A DNA stretch of 64,000 bases from Pseudomonadota bacterium. Its GTDB lineage: Bacteria; Pseudomonadota; Gammaproteobacteria; Acidiferrobacterales; UBA6901. Below are positions 20,193-38,772 of this stretch, one piece after another (the first letter of the stretch is position 1; the number at the start of each line of letters is the position of its first letter). Under the pieces are notes generated by a model, which ran no database searches, was not told the origin of the DNA, and was given only the letters and a program-made list of their open reading frames with translations. Location of the stretch: assembly GCA_021819085.1 (NCBI GenBank), contig JAKASJ010000009.1:1-64000 (forward strand), read 5' to 3'. The translations under genes and the position numbers were made by a program.

Positions 20193-20253
20193 AGCCACAG
20201 GTCCAAAGCCGTGAGCACGCTCGATACCACTTGTCATGATTACCAGCGCTGAA

Positions 20254-20637: not shown

Positions 20638-20876
20638 GGAGCCTTGAAGCGGTGACGGATTGCCTCGTCCATGGCCTCGGGCGATATGGGTTTCTGGCCT
20701 TTGCGGCGGAGCAGACCGTACAGCTCTCCGATGTGATACCGGGCAGCCTCCACGACCACCTGGCCGCTATCGGCAATCCGGAACCGCACCTTATCTCCAA
20801 GTTTGAGCTTCAACCGTTCGCGAATATCGCGCGGGACCGTGATTTGTCCTTTGGAACTCAACCGGGCTTCCGACAT
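20634..20876 (-). CDS. vapB: VapB/AbrB-family antitoxin
   Basis: The 80-aa product is a SpoVT/AbrB swapped-hairpin DNA-binding protein (ARLSSKGQITVPRDIRERLK, LKLGDKVRFRI) followed by a C-terminal toxin-binding tail. A good ribosome binding site (AGGAGT) overlaps the operator at 20888-20912. It is the first gene of the vapBC pair. Confidence 0.9.
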   Translation of the reverse strand: MSEARLSSKGQITVPRDIRERLKLKLGDKVRFRIADSGQVVVEAARYHIGELYGLLRRKGQKPISPEAMDEAIRHRFKAP

Positions 20877-20887
20877 GACGTACTCCT

Positions 20888-20912
20888 ATAGGTAAGAACA
20901 TTCCTTACCTAT
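20888..20912 (-). promoter_or_regulatory. vapBC operator
   Basis: ATAGGTAAG (20888-20896) and CTTACCTAT (20904-20912) form exact inverted repeats around a 7-bp spacer, 11 bp upstream of the antitoxin ATG. A further half-site GTAAGGAT follows at about 20915. Confidence 0.65.
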
Positions 20913-20934
20913 CGTAAGGATACGCACGTTCGTT

Positions 20935-21142
20935 GCCAACAGGCAGGTCCACCCTGCTCGAAACGAAAAGCCAGCCGCCACGGACCGTTCACCGACAAGC
21001 GGTGTCTGCGATCGCCAGGCAACCTCGACGGCAATCTTCTCCTGAGCGGGCAGTCGGCGCGAGCGGGCGCAATGTTCACCGCGCTCACCTCCCACGGGGC
21101 CGTCAGACCCGGAAGCATTTGGTTAAGTTCGGTATCGCGCAT
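20935..21142 (-). pseudogene. fused remnants: HigB C-terminus and ISL3-type transposase N-terminus
   Basis: From 21142 the frame MRDTELNQMLPGLTAPWEVS matches the start of ISL3-family transposases. It then shifts frame and decays. At about 21000-20935 it runs into RLSVNGPWRLAFRFEQGG, which is nearly identical to part of the intact higB at 8477. So a second HigB once lay here and was joined to an ISL3 fragment. Neither piece is functional. Confidence 0.6.
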
Positions 21143-21230
21143 GGGTCACGGTTCCTGCAGGAAGAAGCGCGATACCCACCCGCAGGACGGGGATTAGGCA
21201 AGATCACCCCGACCCACAGAACCCTGAAGA

Positions 21231-21266
21231 ACCTAAAAAAAAGGGGCTGCGATATCCTGCAGCCCC
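21231..21266 (-). terminator. Rho-independent terminator of the fadL-like gene
   Basis: On the minus strand GGGGCTGC (21266-21259), loop, GCAGCCCC (21250-21243) is followed by a run of eight T. It lies 40 bp after the stop of the porin gene. Confidence 0.85.
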
Positions 21267-21305
21267 GATTACCACTTGCTTCCGGCTCAACCGCGCCGGG
21301 TCTTG

Positions 21306-22511
21306 TCAGAACGCATAATTGACGCCGAGACCGAAAGCAGTTTGGGACATGCTGATCTTGACGCCAGGAGTGTGCGAAGTGGCCGAGGCCGTCTCCGTGA
21401 CCGATGGCGCATATAGATAGTAGGCATTCAATGTCGCCTTGCTATCCAGCTTGTAGCCAACACCCAACGTGACATGACTCTGGGAAATCGCCGGGAACGG
21501 ATAGTTGGCGAAGGCCGCATCCATAGAACCGTTCACGGCCGCGGCGCCACCCTGAATGGGCGACTTGCCATAATTGTAGCCGATGCGCAGTGCCAGACTG
21601 TCGGTCGGACGGTATTCGGCGCCGATCTTGTAGACCGGCTCGCTCTTCCAGCCGAAGAACTTGAACACATCGACACCTGCCCAGTCGTAATACAGGGCAT
21701 CCGCCAAAATGTCCACGTTGGGACCGACAGCGAACTTCGCACCCACGCCGTACTCGGTGGGCAGATCCAGACCGCTGTTGCCCGTGAACCCGAACCCGCT
21801 TAGAAGCTGTTTGAAGTAATCGTTGTGGTCCTTCATGCTGAGCTTGGGCTGGAACATGGCGCCGAGCTCAATGCCGTCGGCAACCTTGGCGTCCAGACCA
21901 AGCTTGACGCCCACGCCGGTGGCAGTACGCTGGCCGGTGCCAGATGCGCCTTCTCCGAAAAGATTGCGCGTGGTCAGGGTCTCATAACCGAGCAGGACCG
22001 AGATGCCTCCCGCAAAGTCCGGCGTGAAATTGTAGCTCATCGTCGGGGCCAGAATCAGGCCTTGGAGGTTGACACTCTGCGGCCCGGCGGTTTGTCCAAA
22101 TGCGGACGGAAAAGGATCGGAACCATAGTCGGTATTCATGCCGCCCATGGCATAGGCCATGATGCCCCAGTTCATGTCGCTGTCGATCCGTGACGTGAAC
22201 GCCGCCTGCGGAATGGCGAACATGGTGCTGTCGCTCTTGACCACGGAGCCGCCCACGCTGGTGGAATCGACCTTGCGTTGCGGGCTGAAAATGGTCCAGC
22301 CTGCGCTGATGGCGTTACCGGTCTGGCTGATCAGGGCCGGATTGTCCATGCCGGCCGCGGCCTCACCCGCATTGGCCAGCCCCGCTCCGCCCATACCCTG
22401 GGATACCATGCCGTTGCCGGCCGGCAGAATGCCGTTTGTGGCGAAGGCGCTCGCCGGCAGCGCGAACACCGCAGCGACGGCCAGGGCCAATCTGGTTTTT
22501 CTGATGAACAT
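21306..22511 (-). CDS. FadL/OmpP1-family outer-membrane protein
   Basis: The 401-aa product starts at ATG 22511 behind GGAGGAAC. It has a signal peptide (FIRKTRLALAVAAVFALPAS, then AFA) with cleavage before ATNGILPAGNG, the characteristic FadL-family mature start (ATNGxxxxGxG). The rest alternates in beta-strand fashion and ends in aromatic-terminated NYAF. FadL proteins import hydrophobic compounds across the outer membrane. An inverted repeat at 22560-22595 sits 49 bp upstream and a terminator follows. A distant relative is at 51034-52401. Confidence 0.9.
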   Translation of the reverse strand: MFIRKTRLALAVAAVFALPASAFATNGILPAGNGMVSQGMGGAGLANAGEAAAGMDNPALISQTGNAISAGWTIFSPQRKVDSTSVGGSVVKSDSTMFAIPQAAFTSRIDSDMNWGIMAYAMGGMNTDYGSDPFPSAFGQTAGPQSVNLQGLILAPTMSYNFTPDFAGGISVLLGYETLTTRNLFGEGASGTGQRTATGVGVKLGLDAKVADGIELGAMFQPKLSMKDHNDYFKQLLSGFGFTGNSGLDLPTEYGVGAKFAVGPNVDILADALYYDWAGVDVFKFFGWKSEPVYKIGAEYRPTDSLALRIGYNYGKSPIQGGAAAVNGSMDAAFANYPFPAISQSHVTLGVGYKLDSKATLNAYYLYAPSVTETASATSHTPGVKISMSQTAFGLGVNYAF

Positions 22512-22559
22512 GTGTCTGGTTCCTCCACGGATTGAAGTGTGTTGTTCCAATTCTTGACC

Positions 22560-22595
22560 GGTGACTTATGCATTCCTGCGTCCGCATAAGTCACC
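22560..22595 (-). promoter_or_regulatory. 12-bp inverted repeat upstream of the fadL-like gene
   Basis: GGTGACTTATGC (22560-22571) and GCATAAGTCACC (22584-22595) are exact inverted repeats separated by 12 bp. The position suits a transcription-factor operator or an mRNA-leader hairpin; the regulator is unknown. Confidence 0.6.
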
Positions 22596-23217
22596 TTAAC
22601 CAGAGGTATAGCAGATCTGGCGACAAGCGTTGGTTTTTCGCCGACCAGGCTGTTTTCCGCCATCCCCCTGCCCGGGATACCCCCGGTGACCGCCCGGAAT
22701 GATCCGCGCGCGCGGCGCGGCTGTCAACGTGACGTTATCAAGCGCCGAAACTCCAGACATCCCGTTGATTGATAACGACTTTTATCCGGATCGCTGCGAC
22801 GACGATCCGCGATAAGGGATCATTGCCGCCGATACTATAATAGGAGCGGGATCCCGCGCCCGAAAAATGCCCTCCTTCCGCATGCCGTCCGGCGGCGCCG
22901 TCGCTGGCCCAATACGGGTCGGATTCCGGCTGCAGCCGCGCCGGCGGCACCTCGAATCGCCTGGGCTCCCGCCGAACGATTTGGATAACCTCTAGAAACG
23001 CAGCATGCGCCGTGCTCCGCAACGGGTCGCTGCCACCGCCGCGACCGACCGGGCCCTGCCATCGGCGCTGCACGTCGCGGCGCCTGGCGTTCGCCGCACA
23101 GCGGCGTGCTGCCCCGGACCCGCGCAGCCGCCAACGCGAACCACTGCCGGTGGCAACGCTCCACCAGCGAATGCGCAGCCGCATCAGGCGCCAGGCATCG
23201 GATCGGGACACACGGGG
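22596..23217. other. no recognisable gene
   Basis: Open frames exist on both strands because of high GC, for example a 157-aa minus-strand frame, but composition is Arg-rich and no domain is recognised. A GCGGGATCCCGC palindrome lies near 22850. Confidence 0.45.
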
Positions 23218-23598
23218 CTACGGCGCGCCGGGCATGAAGGCCGTTCGCACGGCAGTGACGAACGTCTCCGCTGGTTCAACCATCGCGCGCGCATCAGTGA
23301 GTTCGACCGCGTTGTCGCTGTAGTCAGCGACATGCCGGAAGGCTTCGGCATGCTTGAGCAGTCGTCCTGCTTCCTTGGGCATTGGACCGCCCTTTACCAG
23401 ATGGTCGTTGAAGGCGTTGAGCACACCACGGCGGGTCTTGCCAACGTCGTGCCCGGCAGCCAACAGCGCAGCGCGGGCGGCGTCAAACATCGCGTAGCAG
23501 GCCCGGTTGCAGGAGCCATCGGCATCGCCGCGGTCCAGCAGCGCTCGGGCCGACTCGGCGGCCTGCACGGCCTTGGCCATCAGGTCCTCCGCTTTCAC
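23218..23598 (-). CDS. HEPN-domain protein of a nucleotidyltransferase/HEPN pair
   Basis: The GTG at 23598 overlaps the upstream gene stop as GTGA. The 126-aa helical product shows the HEPN pattern SCNRACYAMFDAARAALLAA and a later FRHVADYSD block. No canonical RX4HXY RNase motif is visible, so it may not be a HepT-type toxin. HEPN proteins encoded with a minimal nucleotidyltransferase usually act as a TA or stress module in which one partner modifies or inhibits the other. Confidence 0.78.
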   Translation of the reverse strand: MKAEDLMAKAVQAAESARALLDRGDADGSCNRACYAMFDAARAALLAAGHDVGKTRRGVLNAFNDHLVKGGPMPKEAGRLLKHAEAFRHVADYSDNAVELTDARAMVEPAETFVTAVRTAFMPGAP

Positions 23599-23939
23599 AG
23601 GCGCACGCCCTCCCGGGCGATGTTGCGCAACAGGGCCGGGTTCGAGTACGTCTCGGGGTGCTCCCACTCGTCCATCCAGATCGGCAGCGGGGCGATGTTG
23701 ATGCCGGTTTCCAGCAGCACGTCGTAGGCCACATCGGCCATCGCCAGGGCGGTGGGCAGCAGTCGCTGGTGTTCGCCGCGCAGCAACACCGCAACATCGG
23801 CGTCGCTGTCGGGCCGGTGCGTTCCGCGCGCCCGGCTGCCGTACAGAAGCGCACCAGCCATGTCGTAGCGGCCGGCAATCCGGCCTAGAAACCGCTTCAC
23901 TGCGTCCTCGGTGCCAGGATCGATTGCGTTCGCACCCAT
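23595..23939 (-). CDS. minimal nucleotidyltransferase (MNT) antitoxin-like protein
   Basis: The 114-aa product starts MGANAIDPG (ATG 23939) and contains GALLYGSRARGTHRPDSDAD, the GSx10DxD active-site signature of MNT-type nucleotidyltransferases. It overlaps the HEPN gene by 4 bp. In studied MntA/HepT systems the MNT protein adds AMP to HEPN and silences it; here the HEPN family differs, so function is inferred only. Confidence 0.82.
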   Translation of the reverse strand: MGANAIDPGTEDAVKRFLGRIAGRYDMAGALLYGSRARGTHRPDSDADVAVLLRGEHQRLLPTALAMADVAYDVLLETGINIAPLPIWMDEWEHPETYSNPALLRNIAREGVRL

Positions 23940-24510
23940 GCTCAACGCCTCCCCATCCAAGTCCGGGCTAAGCCTAGCAACGCGTCCGGAGGGACGCAAC
24001 GCGTGAATCCGGTTTCTGGATTCGTGGTGTGCGCTCGGCGCTACCGCCCCGAACACACCCCTAATCCGGATACCCCTTTTCCCACGACGGGCGAATGTCG
24101 GCCCCTGCCCCATGCGCCATGGCTGCTGACGACTGACTTCCCCGGCAGCCAATACCAGGACCGTCCGGATCCTGTCCTGCCGGCACAGCCCGCACGATGA
24201 ATTCCATTCGGCTCTGCCACGGCCGGGAAGAAGAACGTCGCCTTACAGAACGAGGGCATCTTTGAACATCGAACCGTGTGCACCGGGATGGCGCGATCCA
24301 CACCGGCCGCACCCGCTGCCGCAGGCGGCTACGCCGTCAAGAAGCGGGACGCCCGGCAACGTCCCGTGGACCGGCACTCCCGGCGCAACTCCCGCGAGCG
24401 CTTCCCCAGGGCTCGCCGGATAACACGGGCGGGTGAAGCCAGGGGTGCAGGCCACCCTGACACCTGCCCAAAAGCGAAAGGGGGCGGCACTCCCCGGCAC
24501 GCCCCGAACC
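23940..24510. other. no recognisable gene
   Basis: High-GC spacer between the MNT gene and the lipoprotein gene. A small GCGTCC-GGAG-GGACGC hairpin near 23983 is the only structure noted. Open frames here have no recognised motif. Confidence 0.45.
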
Positions 24511-26079
24511 TCAGTACCACCCGTTGAGACACGCCGGTCCCGCGAAAGGATTATTGACTTGGCTGTAGGTGAAGTGATCGACATTGCCGGCCGCGTCGGT
24601 GACGGTGATGTCGAAGTCCGGAAGCACGAGCGCACTGCTGTCCGGAAGGACCCAGGTACCGGTGTTGTCGGCGCCCGGGGTGAGCACCGGCGTGGCGCCG
24701 TTGATCGTCATCGCCACGACCCCCGACAGATTGTCGCGGTACGACCCGCTCCAGTTGGCGCTGCCCTGGGGCAGCGGGTAGAAGCCGCTGCTGGTGGCCC
24801 AGTAGCTGTTGACGCAGAACTGCGGCGGGGTGTGGTCGACGTTGAGCGGAAAGCTCGCGGTGGCTACAGTGCCGATATAATCGGTCGCCGCCACCGCGAG
24901 CGTGTGGCGTCCGTCGGGAATGGCCGCGGTATCGAGTGTGGCGGTGAACGCGTAGCCGCCCCCCATCGCCGGAGGCGGCACCGGATTGCCCAGGGCCAGC
25001 GGCTTTCCGTCGAGCGTGACCGCCGGCGGCGATGCGAAACCGAAGGCGTCCTCGAGGTCGAGCGCGAGCACCGGCGAGGTTGCCGCCGGACCGCCCACCC
25101 AGCCGGTGGGACTGCGCAGGACGATGGCCGGTCCCTGCTCGGTGAACGGGATGACTGCCCGGGTGCCGAAAACGGGACTGGTGCTGTCGTTATAGGCCTG
25201 GGCTGCCGCGGCGACGGCTGCGGGACCCACGGACGTGCGGTTTTCCGCGCCCTGCGCCACGCGGACCATCTGCACCGCGAGTGCGTGCCGGTAGACGTCC
25301 GCGTCGAGTGCAAACGTGCCGAGGGAGAGCGGCACCGGGTTGCCGTTCGGATCGGCGGCATTGCCGTCGAGCACGCCATCGGCGGCGATATCGTCGTGCA
25401 TGCGCTGCGCCAGCGACACCGCGTTGAACGGCGCCTGTCCCAGGGTCGCCTGGTCGATGGCTGCGGCGTAGTCGGTCCAACCCGAGAGCGCCGCGGCGGC
25501 AAAGGCGTACTGCAGTCCCGGCGTCAGGAACGGCGAGGCGTTGGCCGGATTGGTGATGTCGACCGGGAGGGTCTTGATGATGTCCACGCCGATGAGCTGC
25601 GAAATCATCTGGTTGGCCTGATCGATCGCGGCGCCGACCGCCATGCCCTGCTTGCCGATGTAGTACTGGGCGAGCCCGGCGGCGACACCGGTGAACGCGG
25701 TGACCGCGACGGTCAGGGGCGTTCCGGAATGATAGTTCGCGAGCGCCGTGAGCGCGGCACCCTCGGCGAGCGGTACCTGCTGGCCGCTCGTCTCGTCGAC
25801 GTAATAGCCGCCGCCCACCTGCACGAGGAGGGGCACATCGGCGCTGCTTATCGTGACGGCATAGCGGCCCTGGTCATCGGTCACGGCGCTGCCGAGCAGA
25901 CTGCCCGCCACGCCGTTGGCGAAGCTGTACACGGAAACGGTCGCGTGCACGATGGGTCCATCGAAGGCCACCCCGGAAACCACCGCGTCCGGGCGTGCCG
26001 GCGGCAGCGCACCGGAGCCGGCGCCGCCGCAGGCAGCGAGCAGCACGGCACAGAACACCGCAGCGAAGCAGGTACGCAT
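24511..26079 (-). CDS. 522-aa lipoprotein, last gene of the VirB-like cluster
   Basis: The N-terminus is a lipoprotein signal (MRTCFAAVFCAVLLAACGG) with lipobox LAAC, so the mature protein would start at Cys17 and be membrane anchored. Residues about 33-90 (VSGVAFDGPIVHATVSVYSF, VTDDQGRYAVTI) look like a carboxypeptidase-regulatory-like or SdrD_B-type beta domain. Residues 350-500 contain further Ig-like strands (SFPLNVDHTPPQFC, ITVTDAAGNVDHF). The middle is Ala-rich and helical. No specific family is recognised. It lies 22 bp after the beta-barrel-like gene in the same direction and may be a surface or outer-membrane component. Confidence 0.7.
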   Translation of the reverse strand: MRTCFAAVFCAVLLAACGGAGSGALPPARPDAVVSGVAFDGPIVHATVSVYSFANGVAGSLLGSAVTDDQGRYAVTISSADVPLLVQVGGGYYVDETSGQQVPLAEGAALTALANYHSGTPLTVAVTAFTGVAAGLAQYYIGKQGMAVGAAIDQANQMISQLIGVDIIKTLPVDITNPANASPFLTPGLQYAFAAAALSGWTDYAAAIDQATLGQAPFNAVSLAQRMHDDIAADGVLDGNAADPNGNPVPLSLGTFALDADVYRHALAVQMVRVAQGAENRTSVGPAAVAAAAQAYNDSTSPVFGTRAVIPFTEQGPAIVLRSPTGWVGGPAATSPVLALDLEDAFGFASPPAVTLDGKPLALGNPVPPPAMGGGYAFTATLDTAAIPDGRHTLAVAATDYIGTVATASFPLNVDHTPPQFCVNSYWATSSGFYPLPQGSANWSGSYRDNLSGVVAMTINGATPVLTPGADNTGTWVLPDSSALVLPDFDITVTDAAGNVDHFTYSQVNNPFAGPACLNGWY

Positions 26080-26101
26080 GGTGCGAATCCCCCGTCAGTG
26101 G

Positions 26102-26683
26102 TCAGCGTATCCGGTGGGTCAGCAATGCGCCGGCGGCGAGCACGGTCGCGGCGTGCGGATCGAGCGGCGCGTCGTAACGCAGGTCCACGCCGATTTTCCA
26201 GCCGTGCGTCCAGCGCCACTCGGAATCCGCCGTGAGCACGGCATCGAGCACGCCAACCGTGCGGTCCGGATAGACCGTCGCCAGAAATCCGCCGCTGTCG
26301 ATCGTGTGGCGCAGCGTCTCGTCCTCGCGCGCATACCCCAGGCCGAACCCGAGCCACGGCTTCCACCGATAGCTCAGGCGCCAGCGCTCCTGGTACGACA
26401 GGCTGGCGCTGGTGCGCTCGATGCGCTGCCCGACATCGGCGGTGCTGGCGGCCAGCGTGACGGTTTCCCGTCCCGCCGCGAGCCGCAGGCGCGTGTCGCG
26501 GCCCCAGCCGAGGATCGCGACCGCGGCGAGGTCGGGCGCCGCGGCGGCCGCGGTCGGTCCATCGGGGTCGGAGACCGAAAGGCGGGCCACGCCGCCGGTA
26601 AGGCCGAGGCTCAGCGGTTCGCCGGCCGCCGCAGCGCATGCCCAGAGCCCGAGCCCGATCGCCAGCATCCATCTCCAATCCAT
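26102..26683 (-). CDS. small outer-membrane beta-barrel-like protein
   Basis: The 193-aa product has a signal peptide (DWRWMLAIGLGLWACAAAAG) and alternating strands rich in aromatic and polar residues (RWRLSYRWKPWLGFGLGYAR, WRWTHGWKIGVDLRYDAPLD). The end is LLTHRIR. It resembles OmpA-like or uncharacterised 8-strand barrels but no family is certain. Its place between virB10 and the lipoprotein suggests a cluster-specific outer-membrane part. Confidence 0.6.
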   Translation of the reverse strand: MDWRWMLAIGLGLWACAAAAGEPLSLGLTGGVARLSVSDPDGPTAAAAAPDLAAVAILGWGRDTRLRLAAGRETVTLAASTADVGQRIERTSASLSYQERWRLSYRWKPWLGFGLGYAREDETLRHTIDSGGFLATVYPDRTVGVLDAVLTADSEWRWTHGWKIGVDLRYDAPLDPHAATVLAAGALLTHRIR

Positions 26684-26722
26684 GATCCCTCCCCGAAAAA
26701 CCGCGAACCGCGCAGCGGCCGG

Positions 26723-27574
26723 TCAGAATGTCGCCGCCACGCGGATGAGCACCGGCTGCGGCGCAACATCGATGATGGGCACCCGCCGCGTGGAACCGCC
26801 GATCGCCCGCCCGGCGTCGCTGAGCAGCGAACCGGTCGCCGCCCCGGCCGCGGCCGCGGCCGCCCCGGTTCCGCCCAGCAGGCTGCCGACCGCGGTGCTG
26901 CCCGCCGCCAGCACGCCCTGGCCGGCGCTGCGCCGCAGCATGCGGACCGCATCGACCGTGACGACGCCGGCAAGGCCCGGAACCCGGGCGGTATCGAACA
27001 CCCGCCCGCGCAGCCGGAATTCGCGCCCGCCGGGGGTGATGCCCTGGACGGCGACCATCTCCATGCGCTGGGTTGCGCCACTCAGGCGCTTCACGCAAAA
27101 CAGCAGCGTTCCGGCCGGCAGCCGCCGGTGGCGTCCGTGCACCGTGCGGCTCAGCACCAGCTCGACCCGCCCCGGGTCGGCGCTCGAGGCCCGCGCCGGC
27201 AGACGCGCATGCATCCAGGTCCCGAGCCGGATGCCGAACCGATGACGGCGACCGGACACCACCGCATCCGAGTAGATGACCGGCTGCGGGGAGGCCGCCC
27301 ACGGCGGACCCCCCGGAACGTCGCGCACGCGCAAGACCGAAGGGAGTGTTTTTGCGCGGCGGCGCGCGGCGACCGGCGCGCGCGGCGCACGCCGCGGCCT
27401 GGGTGCCGGCGGCGCCAGGGCCGCAAGATCCCCCGGCCGCACCAGCCGGGCGCGCACGCGCTCGGCCTGCTCGTCCCGGCGCACCAGCGCATGCAACGCC
27501 GCCGGGGTAATGGCCGCCGCCGCAGGCACCAGCGCCGTGAGCGCCAGCGCGGCGAGTCCGGCGCGCGCTACCAC
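26723..27574 (-). CDS. virB10: VirB10/TrbI-like protein
   Basis: The 283-aa product has an N-terminal hydrophobic segment (VARAGLAALALTALVPAAAA), a Pro/Arg-rich linker (residues 55-75) and a C-terminal domain with FGIRLGTWMHARLPARASSA, RLPAGTLLFCVKRLSG and MEMVAVQGITPGGREF. These are the landmarks of VirB10/TrbI channel proteins that span the periplasm. It overlaps the virB9-like gene by 7 bp. It is shorter than typical VirB10 (about 380 aa). Confidence 0.72.
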   Translation of the reverse strand: MVARAGLAALALTALVPAAAAITPAALHALVRRDEQAERVRARLVRPGDLAALAPPAPRPRRAPRAPVAARRRAKTLPSVLRVRDVPGGPPWAASPQPVIYSDAVVSGRRHRFGIRLGTWMHARLPARASSADPGRVELVLSRTVHGRHRRLPAGTLLFCVKRLSGATQRMEMVAVQGITPGGREFRLRGRVFDTARVPGLAGVVTVDAVRMLRRSAGQGVLAAGSTAVGSLLGGTGAAAAAAGAATGSLLSDAGRAIGGSTRRVPIIDVAPQPVLIRVAATF

Positions 27575-28464
27575 TGCGCCTCCAGGTTGGCCCGGTCGGT
27601 CAGCACCTCCAGGCGCAGCCGGTCGCGGGCATCGAGACGCGCCCGCATGACGGTGAGGACGCCGCGCCCCTGCCCGCCCGGCGCGATGCGCCGCGGCAGG
27701 CTGCGGGCGGCCGGAAGCGGCTGCGCCTGTCCGCTGCCGGCATCGATCTCGAACAGCTGTGCATTCTCGACGCGCAGGCTGCGGGCAGCGCTGCCGTTGC
27801 TCAGCCGGAAAACGAAAACGGTGTACGGGCCGAAGCTCAGCGACTCGCGGACGTACAGCGCCACGCGGCCGCCGTCGGGAAGCGGCGAACGCGCCTCCTG
27901 TTCGATGCGCCGGCGCCGCGGCCGGTCCAGGGCGAGCACGCCGATGCGCGCCTGCGTGCGCGCTGCCACCTCGCGATCGAGACGTGCGACCTGCCGGCGA
28001 TAGCGTGCCTGCAGCGCGCGCGTGCGGCGCGCGACCGCCCTGCGGATGGCGCCGGCCCGCGCGCGCGGCCCGAGTTCGAAGATCACGTCGCTGTAGTCCG
28101 CGGCCCGCTCCACGCTGGTGCGCAGTTCGATGCTCAGCTCATAGCCCGCGACCGTCACGTACAGATTGCCGAAGCAGCGCCGCCGCGCGGCGCCCGGCCG
28201 CGCAGTGACGATGAAGAAGTTGCGGCCCGGATCGCGGTGTGCGGCGAACGCGGCCGGATTCGTCAGGTCGAGCGTGAACGGAACATGCCGCCCTGCGTGG
28301 TCCAGCACGAACGGAAAGATGAAGCGCGTGCCCAGCCCGGGGACGATGCGCACGGTGAGGGTGGTGTAGCGGGTCAGCACCACGCGCTGCTGCCGCAGGG
28401 CGGCACACGCCGGTGATGCCAGAGCCAGCACCAGCAGGACGGTCGGCAGCGCCGGCGCGCGCAT
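27568..28464 (-). CDS. virB9: VirB9/TraK-like secretin-type protein
   Basis: The 298-aa product starts MRAPALPTVLLVLALASPAC, a signal peptide ending ACA or nearby. The N-terminal beta domain (VVLTRYTTLTVRIVPGLGTR, FIFPFVLD) and the C-terminal beta domain (VALYVRESLSFGPYTVFVFR, LSNGSAARSLRVENAQLFEI) with a helical Arg-rich linker fit VirB9/TraK core-complex proteins. Its start is 1 bp from the virB8-like stop. Assignment rests on order and architecture more than on exact motifs. Confidence 0.62.
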   Translation of the reverse strand: MRAPALPTVLLVLALASPACAALRQQRVVLTRYTTLTVRIVPGLGTRFIFPFVLDHAGRHVPFTLDLTNPAAFAAHRDPGRNFFIVTARPGAARRRCFGNLYVTVAGYELSIELRTSVERAADYSDVIFELGPRARAGAIRRAVARRTRALQARYRRQVARLDREVAARTQARIGVLALDRPRRRRIEQEARSPLPDGGRVALYVRESLSFGPYTVFVFRLSNGSAARSLRVENAQLFEIDAGSGQAQPLPAARSLPRRIAPGGQGRGVLTVMRARLDARDRLRLEVLTDRANLEAQW

Positions 28465-28465
28465 C

Positions 28466-29119
28466 TCAGCGCTCCCGGATGCCGGTGACTTGGAGTCCGG
28501 CGGTGTCGGCCATCGTGCGCGCCACGATCGCGACATTCAGGGTCATGTCGAAGGGGCGCACGGTGACGCGATCACGGTGGTCGCGGATGTGGATCTCGCC
28601 GCGCGCCCGGACCCGCGCCGCAAGGCCGCGGCGCTCGAGGATGCGCACGCCGCCGGGCGGCGCGTCGAACGTCAGCCGCGAACGCGAGCGGGCGGCGCGC
28701 ACGCGCATGAGATAATCCCCGCCCGCGGCGCGGTCGCGGCGCAGTGCCTGGAGTGCCGCGCGGCGCAGCGCCGGAGACATCATGTTGAGCGCGGCGGCGT
28801 AGTCGTCGAAGATCGTCGTGCTGTTGAGGCTCAGGTAATCGTCCAGAAAGCGCTTGACGGCGGCGCGGATCTCGGCGTCCGACCGGCTGTCGGGACCGAG
28901 GTATTCCATGCGTCCCAGCACCTGCCCGGCGGCGTTCACCGCCACCACCGGCTTGGGAGCCAGCGTGCTCACGAACACCAGCAGCACGAACAGCGCGAGC
29001 AGCACGAAAAACGCGATCCAGCCGGCCAGCGCGTAGCGCTGCAGCCGCACGATGAGCCAGCCGCCCGGCCCGTGCCGGCCGAGCAGCTCGTTAGGATCGA
29101 GGCGCTGCGGGGCGGCCAT
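28466..29119 (-). CDS. virB8: VirB8/TraE-like inner-membrane protein
   Basis: The ATG at 29119 gives 217 aa: a cytoplasmic tail, one TM (residues about 34-56, GWIAFFVLLALFVLLVFVST) and a periplasmic domain with FLDDYLSLNSTTIFDDYAAA and LNMMSPALRRAALQALR, the LSP-L/R pattern of VirB8/TraE. It overlaps the virB6-like gene by 29 bp. Bitopic VirB8 proteins help assemble the inner-membrane complex. Confidence 0.68.
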   Translation of the reverse strand: MAAPQRLDPNELLGRHGPGGWLIVRLQRYALAGWIAFFVLLALFVLLVFVSTLAPKPVVAVNAAGQVLGRMEYLGPDSRSDAEIRAAVKRFLDDYLSLNSTTIFDDYAAALNMMSPALRRAALQALRRDRAAGGDYLMRVRAARSRSRLTFDAPPGGVRILERRGLAARVRARGEIHIRDHRDRVTVRPFDMTLNVAIVARTMADTAGLQVTGIRER

Positions 29120-30203
29120 GGGATTGTCTCGGACGTCGCGGCGCTGGCCGGCGGCGGCGCGGGCCGGCGGCATCGCCGGCGGGCGCCGGAATAGGCGAAT
29201 CGGCCGCCTGCGCGGACGGGGGCGCCGTCCCCGGCGGGCGCGGACGCGGAACGACGGCCGCACCGCCCGCCGGGACATCGGCACCCGGGCCGGAGTGCCC
29301 GCGCGCGAATGCCGCTGCCCCGGAGGTGAGTTCCAGGCGCCGCGCGAGGCCCGACCCGGCCGCCACGGCGGCCGCAGTAAACGGACCCACCAGTCCGCCG
29401 ACCGCGCCGCTTGCCACCAGGGTATGCGCCACGAACGGTGCGGCCACGAGCAGCGCCGACACGATGAGATTGAGGATGCTGTAGAGCATGTAGACCATGC
29501 CGCCGCTGTCGGCCGCGGTCACCGCCGGGTCCGCGACGAGCGCATTGGCCGCATGCTGGAAGACCGGCGCGAACAGCGCCAGCATCAGCGCCTGCACGAC
29601 CGGCCACAGCAGCACCGTGCCGAGGAGCTGCCCCCAGGGGCGCAGCAGCCGCAGGCCGTTTGCGATCGACAGCGGAATGGCGATGAGCCCCCACAGAAAG
29701 GCGACGCCATAGGCAATCGCCTGCGCGACCCTCAGAAACGCGGCCAGGAACGCAACCACGAGCAGCGTCAGGTAGTAGAAGACGAACATCACCGCCTTGA
29801 CCAGGTTGGCGGCCAGATCGTCGACCAGACCCGCGATGCTCCCGGCGCCGCTGCGCTTGGCCGAGGCGGCCGCAATGAGGCGGGCAAGCTGGCCGGTGAT
29901 GAGATCGAGCGACCCGATCCGGTCCACACTGTGGTAGACCGCGTTCATGAATCCGGCGAGCACGGTCGCCACGCCGAAGTACACGGCCAGCACCGTTCCC
30001 CACAGCGCGATATCGCGCAGCGCCTGCGCCCAGCGGCCCGCGCCGCCGAGCGCGTCGAGCTGCGTCTGCAGCGTGCGCAGATAGATGGCGATGATGAGCA
30101 GCACCGGCGTGAAGGTGGCGGCGACATAGCGGGCGGCGGCGGCCGAGGCATCGTAGACCGGCTGCGGATTGAGACTGCCGATGAGCCGCACGACAGCACT
30201 CAT
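29091..30203 (-). CDS. virB6: VirB6/TrbL-like polytopic membrane protein
   Basis: The 370-aa product has about six to seven TM segments between residues 25 and 270 (FTPVLLIIAIYL; AVYFGVATVLAGFM; FVFYYLTLLVVAFLAAFL; LGTVLLWPVVQALMLALFAP; LNLIVSALLVAAPFVAHTLV) and a Pro/Arg-rich C-terminal tail. This is the VirB6/TrbL layout. It overlaps both neighbours (4 bp with virB5-like, 29 bp with virB8-like), indicating tight co-translation. Confidence 0.75.
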   Translation of the reverse strand: MSAVVRLIGSLNPQPVYDASAAAARYVAATFTPVLLIIAIYLRTLQTQLDALGGAGRWAQALRDIALWGTVLAVYFGVATVLAGFMNAVYHSVDRIGSLDLITGQLARLIAAASAKRSGAGSIAGLVDDLAANLVKAVMFVFYYLTLLVVAFLAAFLRVAQAIAYGVAFLWGLIAIPLSIANGLRLLRPWGQLLGTVLLWPVVQALMLALFAPVFQHAANALVADPAVTAADSGGMVYMLYSILNLIVSALLVAAPFVAHTLVASGAVGGLVGPFTAAAVAAGSGLARRLELTSGAAAFARGHSGPGADVPAGGAAVVPRPRPPGTAPPSAQAADSPIPAPAGDAAGPRRRRPAPRRPRQSHGRPAAPRS

Positions 30204-30832
30204 GGTCCCGACCCGAGCGACCGGACGATGCGTGCGGACGTAGCGACCAGGCCGCGCGCATCGATGCGCGCCTGGGCATGCTGCAGCGCCAGCGCCCGCC
30301 GGCGCTGCTGGGCCATGGCCGCGAGTGCCGCCAGCGTCGCCGTCGATTCGGCCGTGACCCGGGCACTGGCGCGTCCGTTGAGATCGGTGGCGGACCGGGC
30401 CACGTTGTGCGCCGCAGCCTGCTGCAGCGCCTGCAGCTGCTGCAGCCCGGCGAGCTGCTGCAGCTCGACCCGGTAGGCAGCGGCGTCGGCCGGATCGCCT
30501 GAACTCAACGCCTCGATGCGCGCCCGCTCGGCCTGCAGCCCTCCGGCCGCCTGCGCCGGAAGTGAAGCCAGACCGCCGGCGAGCGCGTGGTAGTGCGTGT
30601 CGCGGATGCGCGGATAGGTCTGCTGCGCGCGCTCGGCCATCGCCTTGAGCCGCTGCAGTGTCTGCAGCTGACTGTCGAGCGTGACCGACGACTGCTGCAG
30701 TTGCTCGTAGATCGATACGAGCTCGCCGTAGCTTTGCGGATCGAAGCTCACGTCACCGATGCCGAGAAAGGCGCGCGCCGGGGCGGACGCGCCGATCAGC
30801 GCCGCCGCCAGCAGGATTGACGCCGCCTTCAT
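30200..30832 (-). CDS. virB5: VirB5/TrbJ-like protein
   Basis: The ATG at 30832 overlaps the virB4 stop as ATGA. The 210-aa product has a signal peptide (KAASILLAAALIGASAPARA) and then a long helical, Gln/Ala-rich body (FDPQSYGELVSIYEQLQQSS, LDSQLQTLQRLKAM), as in TrbJ/VirB5 pilus-tip proteins. Its position between virB4 and virB6 agrees. Confidence 0.75.
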   Translation of the reverse strand: MKAASILLAAALIGASAPARAFLGIGDVSFDPQSYGELVSIYEQLQQSSVTLDSQLQTLQRLKAMAERAQQTYPRIRDTHYHALAGGLASLPAQAAGGLQAERARIEALSSGDPADAAAYRVELQQLAGLQQLQALQQAAAHNVARSATDLNGRASARVTAESTATLAALAAMAQQRRRALALQHAQARIDARGLVATSARIVRSLGSGP

Positions 30833-33219
30833 GCGCGCGGCTCCGGGCGGGCGGCGCACTGCGCGCGAAACCGCCGCAGCCGCTCGAGCGGATCGCGGGT
30901 TTTCGCGCCGATCGCCTCTTTCAGGTCCAGGTCCTCGGGCGAGGTCGAGGCGAGATCCAGGATCAGATCCGGGAAGCTCAGGTGCAGCTGGTAGTAGTCC
31001 GGGCCGACCGAACGGATCGCCGGACGCCACGGCTCACCGAGCGGGTAGCGGAAGCGGCGCCAGGCGGCGAGCGCGCCGGGCGGCATGTTGATGCGCCGCG
31101 CGATCTCCTCCCATTCATCGCCGCGGTAGAGCAGCGCGCGCAGCGGCATGCTGTTGATAATCTCTTTCTCCAGGCAGTCGATTTCGCCGATCCCCTGGGT
31201 CACGAGGTCGATGGCCGCACGGTCCTTGCGTCCCATGCGGGCGAGTTCCGAGACCAGGCGCCCCACGATCTGCGGAGCGTCGGCCACGAACTTGTGCATC
31301 TCGTCGAGCAGCACACGCGCGTCATTGCGGCGCGCGAACGCCAGATGCTTGAAGCGCAGCGCGATGAACACCAGGTAGAAGCGCAGCAGCTTGGGACTGG
31401 CGCGGTCGACCTCCTTCAGATCGCAGCCGGTGATGCCAGTGCTCAGCTGCAGGTTGTCGCGCTGCGCGAAGATGCGCCCGGCGGCGGTGCCGAGGAAGCT
31501 GTGCAGGTTGGCGGCGATGCGGCGTGCGGCGGTGCGCTGTTCGCGTGTCTCGTAGTCGCTGTGCTCCAGCCAGTAGAGGTAATCGGTCAGGACCGGTGCC
31601 TCGGCGGTCGGGTCGGGTCCCGCATAGAGCTGCTGCAGGGCATACTCCGCGGCGGCACCCTCGTGCACATCGAACTCGGTGCGCCCGTCGGTCAGCAGGA
31701 AGGCGAGCGCATTGAGCGTGCCTCCGGCAATCACCGCATCGAGCGGCACGGCCGTGTGCGGAACGGCGACCGCGTAGGGCGGCAGCGGATTGACCGCCGT
31801 CGCGCGCGGATCGATGGTGGTATAGCTGCCGCCGAAGCCCTCGACCACCCACTTGTAGGAGCCGCCGATCTCGAGGATGTACCAGTCGGTGCCGAACGGA
31901 TAGGTCTCGGCGATGGTGGCCACCTTGTCGACTCCTTTTCCGCCCCCGGTCATGGCGACGGTGAAACTGTGCGCGACCGGCTGGTTCGCGAGGCTGAAGC
32001 CGATGAGCGCACCCGAGGCGCCGAGGCGCAGCGACTCGGGCACGGCCTCGCCGCTGCGGTAAACCTGGACCGGCAGCATGTGGGCGATCTGGCGCGCGTG
32101 ATCGGCCCGGAACAGCGGTGCCCGGTACCCCTGCCCCGGCTGCGCCGTGCGGAAATACGGCAGCTGCACGTAATCGGCCATGCGCACCTGGCCGCCGGCG
32201 GTCATGATGCAGTCACTCACGAAGCGGCCGTGCTCGGCAAGCTCGGCACGCGTCCCGTGCAGATGGATGACATAGCTGTTGTGGTAGACCACCAGGTTGT
32301 GCTCGGCGACGTAGGCGCGAAAGCCCGCGAGATCCCGGACCGCCTGCAGCTGGCGATCGCGCCCGCGCCGTCCGAGTGCGCCTTCGGCGAGGTCGCTCTG
32401 GCGCTCGGCGGCACGCATTGCAGCGCGCGCGTCCAGCGGGCGCAGGATGGCCACCACGTGCATCGGCACGGGCCGGGCCGCGAGCGGCAGGAACCAGGCC
32501 GGTCCGGCGTCCGGGTACAGGTGCACGAGCAGCACCTGGGTCAGCCGTTCGCCCATCCGCACCACGGAGTCCTCGACACGCGGAGCAGTGCGCAGCAGCT
32601 GTTCGCACAGCAGCAGCTGCGGGTCATAGGCGAGGCGCGCGCCGTGCTCGAACGCGTCCCGGTCGACACTCTGCACGATGCGCTGCAGATAATCGTGCGC
32701 CGGCGCGATGCGTGCCCCCGGCAGATGCGGCAGCAGACGCTGCGCCTGGGCGCGCAGCGTCTCGGCTTCCTCGGCCTGCCGCCGCAGGGCACGGCGGGCG
32801 CCGAAGAACGGCAGCGAAACAGGCACCCGGGTGAGGACGACGGCCACGCTGTTGGCGATGCCGTAGCGGCGCAGGTGCTCGGCCTGGGCGGCGCGCACGG
32901 CGGCGGCGAGCGCACCGCCACGCTGCATCGTCTGTCCGCGTTCCAGATAGGCCTCGGCCAGGCCCGCGTCCCATTCGCGCCACCAGTGGAACTCGGCGCA
33001 GCAGCCGGTCTCGAGGGTCGCCAGCGCACTGTGCAGCGCCGTCCAGGCCTGCGCGCGCTCGGACTCGGTGAGCAGCTCGGCGTCGATGCCGGACCATTCG
33101 ATCAGCAGCGACACCGCGCCGTCTCCGTGCGCAATCACCTCCTCGCCCAGCAGATGCGACCAGGTATAGAGCGCCGGATACTGGCGCGATCGGGGGAGCA
33201 GGCGCGGCGCGCGCAGCAT
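30829..33219 (-). CDS. virB4: VirB4/TraC-like T4SS ATPase with variant Walker A
   Basis: The 796-aa protein has the VirB4 N-terminal domain (ALYTWSHLLGEEVIAHGDGA) and a C-terminal AAA-type ATPase. The Walker A region near residue 423 reads AMTGGGKGVDK: the usual Ser/Thr after GK is Gly, and the first P-loop Gly is missing. Later blocks are DWYILEIGGSYKWVVEGFGG, NPLPPYA, and a Walker B ARVLLDEMHKFV near residue 640. VirB4 powers pilus assembly and secretion. It overlaps virB5 (4 bp) and touches virB3 (1 bp). Confidence 0.82.
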   Translation of the reverse strand: MLRAPRLLPRSRQYPALYTWSHLLGEEVIAHGDGAVSLLIEWSGIDAELLTESERAQAWTALHSALATLETGCCAEFHWWREWDAGLAEAYLERGQTMQRGGALAAAVRAAQAEHLRRYGIANSVAVVLTRVPVSLPFFGARRALRRQAEEAETLRAQAQRLLPHLPGARIAPAHDYLQRIVQSVDRDAFEHGARLAYDPQLLLCEQLLRTAPRVEDSVVRMGERLTQVLLVHLYPDAGPAWFLPLAARPVPMHVVAILRPLDARAAMRAAERQSDLAEGALGRRGRDRQLQAVRDLAGFRAYVAEHNLVVYHNSYVIHLHGTRAELAEHGRFVSDCIMTAGGQVRMADYVQLPYFRTAQPGQGYRAPLFRADHARQIAHMLPVQVYRSGEAVPESLRLGASGALIGFSLANQPVAHSFTVAMTGGGKGVDKVATIAETYPFGTDWYILEIGGSYKWVVEGFGGSYTTIDPRATAVNPLPPYAVAVPHTAVPLDAVIAGGTLNALAFLLTDGRTEFDVHEGAAAEYALQQLYAGPDPTAEAPVLTDYLYWLEHSDYETREQRTAARRIAANLHSFLGTAAGRIFAQRDNLQLSTGITGCDLKEVDRASPKLLRFYLVFIALRFKHLAFARRNDARVLLDEMHKFVADAPQIVGRLVSELARMGRKDRAAIDLVTQGIGEIDCLEKEIINSMPLRALLYRGDEWEEIARRINMPPGALAAWRRFRYPLGEPWRPAIRSVGPDYYQLHLSFPDLILDLASTSPEDLDLKEAIGAKTRDPLERLRRFRAQCAARPEPRA

Positions 33220-33491
33220 CAGGCATCCGTCCGCGTTTCGCCCGTGACCCGGCCGCGCTCGCGGCGCGCGGCCAGCAGGACCGGCAGAAACGGACGTTCA
33301 TCGCCCAGCCACAGGCCGCCCGCGGCTGCGGCCAGCGCCGCAAGCGCGGCCGCGGCAGTGAAGGGCTTCAGTACCGCCGGCAGCAGCAGCGTGAACAGGA
33401 GCAGCGGCAGCGCCACCACCGCGCCCACGGCAGTCAGCGCGGGCACGCCGAAGAACTCGCGCGGTTCGTACCGGCGATTGAAGGCGCTCAT
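33219..33491 (-). CDS. virB3: VirB3-like protein
   Basis: The 90-aa product starts MSAFNRRYEPREFFGVPAL and has two hydrophobic segments (residues about 20-42 and 44-62), then a soluble tail with DERPFLPVLLAARRERG. Size, PxxxFGVP-like start and position between virB2 and virB4 identify it as VirB3/TraL-like. Confidence 0.75.
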   Translation of the reverse strand: MSAFNRRYEPREFFGVPALTAVGAVVALPLLLFTLLLPAVLKPFTAAAALAALAAAAGGLWLGDERPFLPVLLAARRERGRVTGETRTDA

Positions 33492-33808
33492 TGGCCGGCG
33501 ACCAGGGCGGCGATGCCGTAGGCGAGCGCGGCAATGAGGATGCCGAGCGACCCCCAGATCACCTGGCGCTTGCCGCCTTCCGGATCGCCGGCGCCCATCT
33601 TGATGGCCCCGACGATGATGCCGATGATGCCGACGATCCCGGCGACGAATGCCAGCACGTCGCTGATCGCCTTGCCGCGCGACTCGAGGGCGCCGCGCAG
33701 GTCCGAGCCCTGGGCATAGCTCGGCAGGGTGATGCGATCGGCCTGGGCGGGCGGGACGGCAAGCAGAATGCCGAGTACGGCCAGGGTGGCGAGTAGGAGC
33801 TGTTTCAT
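33488..33808 (-). CDS. virB2: VirB2-like pilin subunit
   Basis: The ATG at 33808 follows a perfect GGAGG site. The 106-aa product has a signal peptide (KQLLLATLAVLGILLAVPPA, cleavage after QA) and two hydrophobic helices (ISDVLAFVAGIVGIIGIIVG and WGSLGILIAALAYGIAALVA) joined by a short polar loop KMGAGDPEGGKRQ. This is the VirB2/TrbC pilin pattern. It is the first gene of the cluster. Confidence 0.82.
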   Translation of the reverse strand: MKQLLLATLAVLGILLAVPPAQADRITLPSYAQGSDLRGALESRGKAISDVLAFVAGIVGIIGIIVGAIKMGAGDPEGGKRQVIWGSLGILIAALAYGIAALVAGQ

Positions 33809-34618: not shown

Positions 34619-34960
34619 TTACGCGGCTCTCAGCGTGAAATCCACGCGGACCGCATCAAACGGAAAGATGATCTTTCTGTCTTCGGTCTTTTGCAGAATA
34701 CCCGCATTGAGCAAGGCATGGACATCGCTATGGACCGCCTTGACGTCGCGTGCGACACGCCGGGCGGCTCCCCGGATGGTCACGGGCCCCGCCCCTGCCA
34801 GGCTCGCTAACAGCTCCCAGCGCTTCTGGGTGAGGACCTTGAACAGCAGCGCCGGGGTGTCAAAGCTGATCACCGCACCCTGCGCCTTTCCCTCAAAGGC
34901 ACGCAGGACGCGCCTATGAGTTTCATCGCGGGAGCACACTTCCAAAGAAACAGTACGCAT
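34619..34960 (-). CDS. tumA: TumA-like HTH antitoxin (HVO_A0114 type)
   Basis: The 113-aa product has a winged helix (FKVLTQKRWELLASLAGAGP, VTIRGAARRVARDVKAVHSD, VHALLNAGILQKTEDRKIIF) typical of COG4190/HVO_A0114 DNA-binding proteins. These pair with TumE (formerly DUF6516) toxins. The ATG is 1 bp after the toxin stop. Confidence 0.85.
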   Translation of the reverse strand: MRTVSLEVCSRDETHRRVLRAFEGKAQGAVISFDTPALLFKVLTQKRWELLASLAGAGPVTIRGAARRVARDVKAVHSDVHALLNAGILQKTEDRKIIFPFDAVRVDFTLRAA

Positions 34961-34961
34961 A

Positions 34962-35243
34962 TCAGAGCCTCCGATGGTCCACGTCGTGCCAGAAATCGGT
35001 GAGCAGCGAATCGATCGTCGTGAACCGATAACTCATTTCCCGCTTCCCAACATGTCGATGATCACCTTTTCCCGCCTCGTTGTCGTAACGCACGACACAT
35101 TGACCGTTCACTACAAGTGCCAGCCGGTATTTGAATCGGTGCGCACAGCCCGGCAGCGTTTTGGGGAGTTGCCAGATCACTAACTCAACAAACGCGTTCT
35201 CCGCAATCACCCGGCGTTCATCAAGCATGAGCCTGGCCTTCAT
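34962..35243 (-). CDS. tumE: TumE-family toxin (formerly DUF6516)
   Basis: From ATG 35243 the 93-aa product reads ARLMLDERRVIAENAFVELV, then FKYRLALVVNGQCVVRYDNE, AGKGDHRHVGKREMSYRFTT and LLTDFWHDVDHRR. The YDNExGKGDHRH block is the family hallmark and holds the probable catalytic His residues. An ATG at 35255 is an alternative start. It forms an operon with tumA, an intact pair. Confidence 0.88.
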   Translation of the reverse strand: MKARLMLDERRVIAENAFVELVIWQLPKTLPGCAHRFKYRLALVVNGQCVVRYDNEAGKGDHRHVGKREMSYRFTTIDSLLTDFWHDVDHRRL

Positions 35244-35254
35244 GTTGGGCAGCA

Positions 35255-35278
35255 TGACAACACTCTGGTCTGTTGTCA
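35255..35278 (-). promoter_or_regulatory. tumE-tumA operator
   Basis: TGACAACA (35255-35262) and TGTTGTCA (35271-35278) form exact inverted repeats with an 8-bp spacer directly upstream of tumE. Confidence 0.6.
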
Positions 35279-36275
35279 ATAAATCCAACAGAAGCCCGCC
35301 AAGGCCATGCTACCGCGTACGCAAAGCAGGCGAGGGATGCTGCCGGATCACAGGAGGCGCCGCTCATAAGGCGCGCTTTCGGCTATCCCCACGGTCGCTT
35401 TGCGTCCCCGCTCTTGCCGGGGTGTTTCTGCCTGAGCTCCCGTCGAAATCCTGCGCAGGATCGGCTCTGCTCGGCAATCGCGATCATAATGGGTTACGCA
35501 GGTCGGATGGCGGAATGAAAAAAAGAGGGTCTTGGGGCAACTCCGGCGAAACCGGTAGGCACGTCGTGCCGCTTTTGTCCCTGCGCCAGGCGATGATTGA
35601 GGCAAGAATTCCTGGCCGGACCGCAGCCGGAATCGAATCGGTTCTGCCATGGGTCTGGCACAAAGACTCCGGCTGCCGGCGCTATTCCGGATGCAGCCGT
35701 CGATCGGGATTCAGCAGAAAAAAAAGGGGGGATGTCACTACCCCGTCATCGACAACGTCATCCCGCGATGCGGTGCCGCAGGTCCTTCGTGATGAGCCTC
35801 ACAGGGTACGGATCGCGTCGGACCCGACGCACACGTGACGCGTTCATGGAAGGCCTTGGCATCTTTAGTCTTTGGCAGGTACAAGCGGTACCCGGGTACC
35901 GATCGTCTGGGCACGCTTGTAGCGTGCGTATCCGCGCATCCTTGGGCAACGCCGATCCCGCACCGTGGCCACGGACGGAAACGTCGACGGCCAGACGCGC
36001 ACGCAGGAGCACCGGGATCGGACCAGCCATTCGGGCGCCAGCCAGAGTTTCAATGCGCGATCCACCGCATGGAGTTCGACCGGCCTGGAGACGTCCGCCC
36101 GCCGCGTCGACGCCAATCCGTCTGGCGGATCCGCGCCTGACGGCAGACGCGGACCGTGGCGGGAACCGGACGGGGTCACGCCGCACGCCCTCACGCATCT
36201 GACGATCGTTCGCCTACCAGGCAGGGACTGGCTGCAGAAACAGGCCGGGCTGAATCATGCGGGCGTGGACTGGAA
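35279..36275. other. about 1 kb without a supported gene
   Basis: Several Arg-rich frames exist on both strands, such as a minus-strand frame at 35758-36198, but none shows a recognised domain or good ribosome binding site. It may be decayed coding sequence between the TA pair and the PEP-CTERM genes. Confidence 0.4.
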
Positions 36276-36828: not shown

Positions 36829-37515
36829 TCAGGCGGCGGACTGGCCGCGCCGCGCCGATCTGCTGCGGCATGCAAAGACTGCAATTCCGATCAGCCCGGA
36901 ACCGAAAAGCCACAATGCCGCGGGCACCGGCACCGGCGTGAGCGTGCCGCCCAGGGTCACCTGGACGTTGCCACTGATGGGTGTGGATACGTTATTGATG
37001 TCGGCATTCACGCTGAAACTGTTGTTCCAGCCGAGTGTATACGCGTTGGTGAGCGCATCAAAGGTGCTGCTGCTGTTGGGCGGGTTGACGATCCAGGCCG
37101 GCGCGTCGAACGAAATCGGACCTAAACTCGTACTGAGATTCACATTCAGACGGAAGCTGCTGAAATTCACGTTCACGGGATTCGAATTGCCGGTATCCAC
37201 ATATCCGCTCGGGGCAGGCTCGCTGTAGGCGCCCGTCGAGTAGATCGTTGCCGTGCCGGTTGCTCCGGACGTGTTGACATTGGCCGTATAGATGGGATCC
37301 TGGTACTGGCCCATGAGAATTTCCGCCGGCGGCACCACCGGTCCGGAGAACGAATAGGTTCCGTCCCCGGTAATGCTGACGGTCAACGACGCAGTGTTGA
37401 CCAGCATGCTGCTGATGTTCACCGTCGACGCCCAGGCCGCCGATAGCGGCGCCAGGCAGCCAAGCAGTACCATTCCCAGCCAGAACTTCAGTTTTTTTCC
37501 TTGTGCGTTGTTCAT
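36829..37515 (-). CDS. VPxPA/PEP-CTERM surface protein
   Basis: The 228-aa product has a signal peptide (LKFWLGMVLLGCLAPLSAAW, then AS), a Ser/Thr/Asn-rich beta body with SFRLNVNLSTSLGPISFDAP, and a C-terminal sorting tail LTPVPVPAALWLFGSGLIGI ending in an Arg cluster (CRSRSARR). This VPxPAALWLFGSG tail is the VPxPA variant of PEP-CTERM, cut by an exosortase. A good ribosome binding site (GGAGGAGC) precedes the ATG. The function of the body is unknown. It is likely secreted and processed at the cell surface. Confidence 0.85.
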   Translation of the reverse strand: MNNAQGKKLKFWLGMVLLGCLAPLSAAWASTVNISSMLVNTASLTVSITGDGTYSFSGPVVPPAEILMGQYQDPIYTANVNTSGATGTATIYSTGAYSEPAPSGYVDTGNSNPVNVNFSSFRLNVNLSTSLGPISFDAPAWIVNPPNSSSTFDALTNAYTLGWNNSFSVNADINNVSTPISGNVQVTLGGTLTPVPVPAALWLFGSGLIGIAVFACRSRSARRGQSAA

Positions 37516-37671
37516 GTTCTGCTCCTCCGTCCCGAATCCTGCTGCAACGCGCCAATCCGACGCGGTGTCTCCTTCGTTGAGTATTCCGGACCAGCCCTGG
37601 TCCTCGGGCTTCTTTTAACGAGTACTTCGCGGCCTTGTCCCGACGACGAGAGCGCCAGGGGAGGCCTTTGG

Positions 37672-37707
37672 AAAAAAACAGGGCGGGGCAAAACATCGCC
37701 CCGCCCT
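37672..37707 (-). terminator. Rho-independent terminator of the 298-aa surface-protein gene
   Basis: On the minus strand AGGGCGGGGC (37707-37698), an 8-nt loop, GCCCCGCCCT (37689-37680) is followed by a T-rich run (37678-37672), 50 bp after the stop at 37758. Confidence 0.9.
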
Positions 37708-37757
37708 GGCTATTGCTACTGCTGGAACACAGATTCAACCTCCCGCTAAGGGCGAGA

Positions 37758-38654: not shown

Positions 38655-38772
38655 TTTGCTCCTCCACGTAAAAAATATTTGAGGTAATAAATCACTCGAG
38701 AGATTTACTTCTCTATCGCTACTGCACCGCCAGTGGAATATCCCGTTTCCGATGCGGCGCTACCTGTCAAAA

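Follow-up and report, generated by a model that had tools for sequence, protein, structure and literature searches.

A divergent, chromosomal VirB-like gene cluster without linked VirB11, VirD4, or relaxase

The window analyzed here is a stretch of 64,000 nucleotides (G000:C20:1-64000, on contig C20) from a genome of 3.42 Mb in 78 contigs. An ORF map of the window contains a run of ten genes, all on the minus strand from 33808 down to 24511, with overlaps of no more than 29 bases and gaps of no more than 39 bases, in the order B2-B3-B4-B5-B6-B8-B9-B10-barrel-Ig-like lipoprotein. The run starts, as in all loci of the family, with B2 (33488..33808), a VirB2/TrbC-like pilin of 106 aa with a signal peptide and two hydrophobic segments. 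Between it and B4 lies B3 (33219..33491), a putative VirB3-like small membrane protein (90 aa) with membrane segments that belongs to a conserved family. B4 (30829..33219) encodes a VirB4/TraC-like ATPase of 796 aa (Walker A AMTGGGKG, Walker B LLDEMH) and is followed by a secreted helical protein in the VirB5 position (B5; 210 aa, with a signal peptide; 30200..30832), a putative VirB6-like polytopic membrane protein (B6; 370 aa; 29091..30203), and a putative VirB8-like bitopic protein with one N-terminal membrane segment (B8; 217 aa; 28466..29119). B9 (27568..28464) encodes a 298-aa VirB9 with a signal peptide, whose two beta domains a long helix connects; B10 (26723..27574), with a GTG start, encodes a VirB10-like protein of 283 aa. 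The last two genes encode a small predicted outer-membrane beta-barrel (193 aa, with a signal peptide; 26102..26683) and an Ig-like lipoprotein of 522 aa (24511..26079).

Standard domain libraries (Pfam and NCBIfam) barely detect the cluster, recognizing only B2, B4, B10, and the lipoprotein, all weakly. B4 matches TIGR02746 (TraC, F type) at 4e-18, with 65 bits that fall far under the cut-off of 567, and TIGR00929 at 3e-7, again under the cut-off; B2 matches PF04956 (TrbC/VirB2) at 3e-5, also under the cut-off. B10 matches PF12508 (conjugative TraM/VirB10) at 8e-4, and the profile of its family lies nearest the CagY/VirB10 C-terminal domain (E 0.06). Pfam gave no useful match for B9; its AlphaFold model (pLDDT 88) has TrwF/VirB9 (8e-10) and DotH as top Foldseek matches, also matches CagX and the Xanthomonas VirB9, and superimposes on TrwF/VirB9 with a VIA Z of 12.7 (2.6 Å over 101 residues), so that B9 is a VirB9 by its predicted fold. 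The outer-membrane core pair is thus assigned by fold for B9 and by weak profile matches for B10. The names of B3, B5, B6, and B8 are putative and follow gene order, size, and membrane or signal features, together with conservation; B5 had no database match, and B3, B6, and B8 had no sequence match in Pfam, NCBIfam, or the PDB. A PDB search with the single B4 protein and profile searches with B4, B8, and B6 returned nothing useful. The packed genes leave no ORF between them for a small lipoprotein of the VirB7 type, and the only lipoprotein of the cluster is the 522-aa Ig-like one. Through VirB4 and VirB9 the cluster belongs to the type IV secretion system (T4SS) superfamily, and it is almost certainly a divergent T4SS.

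The Walker A motif of B4 reads A[MIKV]TGxGKG, with GKG replacing GK[ST]; only two members, L042 (GKS) and L038 (GKD), depart from this. GKG motifs occur in VirD4/TraG proteins and need not mean inactivity; because almost all intact loci conserve both GKG and Walker B, the idea of B4 as a dead ATPase was rejected. In the L038 copy of B4 (genome G036; L038:9083-11488) both motifs are altered, to GKD and to LLNEL. This is also the one long locus where neither barrel nor lipoprotein was found, and the copy is probably decaying or altered.

The lipoprotein comprises a lipobox cysteine (Cys17, invariant among relatives), an N-terminal beta domain, a helical domain, and two C-terminal Ig-like domains. 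It matches PF19077 (Big_13) at 5e-5, and its AlphaFold model (pLDDT 84) has Ig-type structural matches that include RTX adhesin and SiiE repeats; comparison of its fold returned generic Ig matches only. A barrel or lipoprotein gene is present in all long loci except L038, and the barrel directly follows B10 in nearly all of them. The trailing genes are displaced in two loci (in L041 the barrel precedes B2, and in L042 the lipoprotein lies upstream on the other strand), and in L032 the lipoprotein is duplicated. Both genes occur in plasmid and chromosomal forms of the cluster. They are conserved parts of it, and this survey of homologous loci bears out the suggestion of a preliminary description, made from the window alone, that its two last genes are cluster-specific. 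The conservation of a predicted secreted barrel together with an Ig-like lipoprotein suggests that the product is an outer-surface structure, and nominates both proteins as parts of the machine.

The operon of the window lies between a FadL-like gene and a set of PEP-CTERM and TPR genes. Three toxin-antitoxin-like pairs, all on the minus strand, lie around it (20254-20876, 23218-24080, and 34619-35288); their types are PIN with MazE/PrlF-type, HEPN with nucleotidyltransferase, and TumE with HVO_A0114-type HTH. The HVO_A0114-type HTH is without a match in the corresponding locus of G660, a genome of another species of the genus.

When the proteins of 274 genomes of the class were searched, seven other genomes gave strong full-length B4 matches, one of them with two copies, and further loci were taken from genome contigs and from one plasmid record, CP013100 (Candidatus Tenderia electrophaga). 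HMM scans of the ORFs at these loci recovered the whole gene set in the same order in relatives. No other carrier was found among 397 genomes sampled evenly across the phylum, so the family is rare outside its lineages; viral contigs and phage records held no relative of the cluster. We found no description of the cluster in the open-access literature.

In f3, a second family of the same order as the window genome, B4 was found in 17 of 18 sampled genomes (14/14 of genus g3 and 3/3 of genus g435), including a complete chromosome of 3,398,398 bases. Each of the 15 f3 loci that could be read from end to end has all ten genes in order. G701 has a split lipoprotein frame, and a contig end truncates a sixteenth locus. 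The flanks are common to 11-15 of these loci on both sides: a secretin gene and a TPR protein gene, along with genes for an aminotransferase, a hydrolase, and a methyltransferase (by their order, putatively bioF-bioH-bioC) precede the operon, and a hisZ-like gene follows it. Neighbors read by eye in G003 and G006 are ordinary chromosomal genes. A quick B4 tree places the window and G660 beside f3 (support 85), with the plasmid forms branching earlier; long branches leave the deeper order uncertain. The pattern of the locus is that of a stand-alone operon passed on vertically in the chromosome, not of a mobile element, and chromosomal domestication of the machine is very probable.

Within the genus of the window, G660 (L028) shares the full operon, its gene order, and its flanks with the window. 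Compared with G660, the ten genes of the window show dN/dS values of 0.15-0.36 and their neighbors values of 0.08-0.19, and the ten genes are under purifying selection. These ratios, together with the same order in independent genomes, exclude chance ORFs, and the arrangement that the preliminary description had read from the window, virB2 to virB10 and two trailing genes packed tightly on one strand, is confirmed. B4 finds no match in the three remaining genomes of the genus, two of which keep relics at the same site: in G658 (L127:2794-5595) the FadL gene is followed by a lipoprotein fragment (residues 402-499) and by 57 bases of B2, and in G659 (L128:1223-3085) a FadL-like gene is followed by lipoprotein residues 478-522. 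The operon was therefore present in the ancestor of the genus and later deleted, not recently acquired.

Five loci carry an additional block upstream of B2: L027 (the Tenderia plasmid), L034 and L036 (both G022), L037 (G206), and L038 (G036). Encoded in it are HTH-like (209 aa), ParB-type, and MarR-like proteins, a VirD4-like ATPase (about 531 aa), and a membrane protein of 88-118 aa, with ParA nearby. The cluster of the Tenderia plasmid (Tel_17025-Tel_17080, all annotated as hypothetical) contains all ten genes, arranged as in the window, and its B4 is 54% identical to that of the window; it differs in being plasmid-borne, in having the VirD4-like, ParB, and HTH genes just upstream, and in its longer lipoprotein (960 aa). 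CP013100 is a complete circular plasmid without a VirB11-family gene, despite its own VirD4-like and Par genes, and the absence of VirB11 is therefore a trait of the whole family, not a loss. Pfam scans of most of the large proteins of this plasmid found no relaxase; PLSDB nonetheless types the plasmid as MOBP. The plasmid also carries a ThiF/multiubiquitin pair and a set of DUF499, DNA methylase, SNF2 helicase, and FtsK-like genes (L054:4862-7309, 13114-23418, and 37047-47776); the ThiF/multiubiquitin and DUF499 sets are possibly involved in phage defense.

A search of the window's own genome gave no match on C20 to the relaxase (PF03432), VirB11 (PF00437), or VirD4 (PF02534) profiles, and the mobilization genes reported missing from the window do not adjoin the cluster on its contig either; all matches lie on other contigs. 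Contig C57 carries canonical VirB4, VirB11, and VirD4 genes and C22 a relaxase (PF03432), none of them linked to the cluster, so the parts that, if nearby, would have made this an ordinary conjugative element lie elsewhere. C57 carries an ordinary conjugative element, separate from the window cluster. The idea that its set serves the window cluster was rejected, as its VirB4 is separate and canonical and marks an independent element; parts of it may be used in trans. More widely, no gene of the T2SSE family (VirB11) occurs on C20, beside any of the clusters, or on the complete Tenderia plasmid, and no PF03432 relaxase was found in the seven other carrier genomes. By these tests on relaxase and VirB11, the cluster is outside the conjugative and VirB/D4 classes.

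The window genome does have a cognate VirD4-like gene on another contig (G000:C2:30079-31629), of the same family as those beside the plasmid clusters. Its product scores above the cut-offs of PF10412 and PF12696, the profile of its family matches DotL at 1e-6, and an adjoining gene is Replication-relaxation-like. The block in which it lies (L083:8690-12099) also holds Replication-relaxation-like, MarR-like, and small membrane protein genes. The claim that the cluster lacks VirD4 thus stands for the contig but not for the genome, where the cognate gene keeps plasmid-type accessory genes. Each of the five genomes of the genus has the block at the same chromosomal position, a long way from the VirB operon. 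Three of them have the VirD4-like gene but no match to B4; in G658, where the VirB operon is lost, the gene is broken by frameshifts, a double loss that gives a hint of functional linkage between the two. Through the distant VirD4-like gene, export or substrate transfer may still take place in this genus. Four carriers that are 96-99% complete (G668, G207, G003, and G006) have no match to PF02534 or to the cognate VirD4-like profile, and the PF02534 proteins of several other f3 genomes are unrelated.

The f3 clusters have a further peculiarity. Their B9 and B10 (for example L085:14424-15179 and L085:15176-15907) have no signal peptide and begin just past the point where the signal peptides of other members end; the window and all other members have these signals, and in f3 itself signal peptides are retained on B5, the barrel, and the lipoprotein. 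Without signals, B9 and B10 of f3 do not fit a standard outer-membrane core. Stop-start overlaps are tight at the B8-B9-B10 junctions in f3; fusion of the three by frameshifting was considered as a reason for the missing signals and rejected, inspection by eye having found no conserved slippery site there.

The function that best accommodates these observations, tentatively and at somewhat under even odds, is that of a surface pilus or adhesin rather than of plasmid transfer, a reading that comes from the sequences. VirB4, as the single ATPase, would drive a B2 pilin filament tipped by B5, with B3, B6, and B8 forming the inner-membrane platform and B9 and B10 the outer-membrane core; the barrel and the Ig-like lipoprotein would tether the filament to the outer membrane or display it there, and the resulting structure could be used in attachment, comparable in principle to Bartonella Trw. 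The adhesin-type matches of the modeled Ig-like domains speak for such a role, but Ig-like folds are generic. Without VirB11 and, in some f3 genomes, without a recognized VirD4, one-step transfer of a substrate is unlikely there. Other T4SSs without VirD4 are known as adhesive pili (Bartonella Trw; PMC12857230, PMC2610397) or serve in DNA uptake (ComB) and two-step export (Ptl and Brucella VirB) (PMC12857230), and among these roles we rank an adhesive pilus first, followed by protein export, DNA uptake, and a remnant.

Protein export or a contact-dependent effector system is an unlikely main role, though the best placed of the alternatives. It would employ the VirD4-like ATPase in trans in the window's genus, where that gene sits at the same place in every genome, and in carriers without one would proceed in two steps, through Sec and then the T4SS, as documented for Ptl and Brucella VirB (PMC12857230). 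However, three genomes of the genus have the VirD4-like gene without matching B4, f3 has the VirB operon without a close VirD4-like homolog, and no effector or immunity genes were recognized beside the operon. A DNA-uptake machine, improbable on present evidence, would resemble the ComB system of Helicobacter pylori, which imports DNA with nearly the same gene set (VirB2-4 and 6-10, without VirD4; PMC12857230). Yet ComB has no VirB5, whereas a gene in the VirB5 position is kept here; ComB needs a VirB11-type ATPase (PMC13395361), and none is linked to the cluster; and the genomes also have type IV pilus or type II-type ATPases, the usual route of uptake. We give little credence to the cluster as the remains of an integrated conjugative plasmid, either in decay or still transferable in trans on occasion: the plasmid relatives with Par and VirD4-like genes, the deletion of the operon in two species of the genus, and the toxin-antitoxin pairs around the window copy are in its favor, but all ten genes are intact and under purifying selection, the chromosomal locus is fixed across f3, and no relaxase is linked.

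The cluster preferred here as a pilus or adhesin locus is like Bartonella Trw in being conjugation-derived and chromosomal, in having no coupling protein in the locus, and in keeping a pilin and a VirB5-position gene (PMC12857230, PMC2610397). Trw, however, is a close copy of R388 with a VirB11 and duplicated pilin genes; the window cluster is sequence-divergent, VirB11-less, and single-copy, and has the barrel and Ig-like lipoprotein in addition. With ComB it shares B2-B3-B4-B6-B8-B9-B10 and the absence of VirD4 (PMC12857230); ComB differs in having no VirB5, and in its dependence on a distant VirB11-type ATPase (PMC13395361), and it is not known to have a barrel and Ig lipoprotein pair. The resemblance to F-type (MPF-F) systems lies in TraC of the F type, the best named profile for B4; the cluster has, unlike these systems, a VirB5-VirB6-VirB8-VirB9-VirB10 layout, and no F-specific Tra proteins were recognized by Pfam. 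F-type systems are not known to have a VirB11, a point of likeness to the cluster. It is doubtful, if conceivable, that the cluster represents a surface machine of a new class, VirB11-less and VirD4-independent, whose structural parts include the dedicated barrel and Ig-like lipoprotein, which in one family works with signal-less VirB9 and VirB10, and through which iron- or sulfur-oxidizing and electroautotrophic bacteria attach to, or make contact with, minerals or electrodes.

The proposal in the preliminary description of a stand-alone system rather than conjugation holds as regards the vertically inherited, fixed chromosomal operon; the absence of VirB11, shared with the Tenderia plasmid, is no sign of a changed function. 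Since the cluster is nearly invisible to standard domain libraries, surveys of secretion systems will probably overlook systems of this kind. One machine is found in three states, with the coupling protein adjacent (plasmid), distant (the window's genus), or absent (family f3), which makes the role of a T4SS without VirD4 and VirB11 testable in non-pathogenic environmental bacteria.

Elsewhere in the window, genes for TPR-glycosyltransferase-41 and TPR-sulfotransferase proteins lie beside those for PEP-CTERM proteins (39165-43656 and 36829-38654), a neighborhood that is kept beside the operon in G660, and a cobalamin riboswitch (RF00174, 116 bits) is present on the minus strand at 17623-17837.
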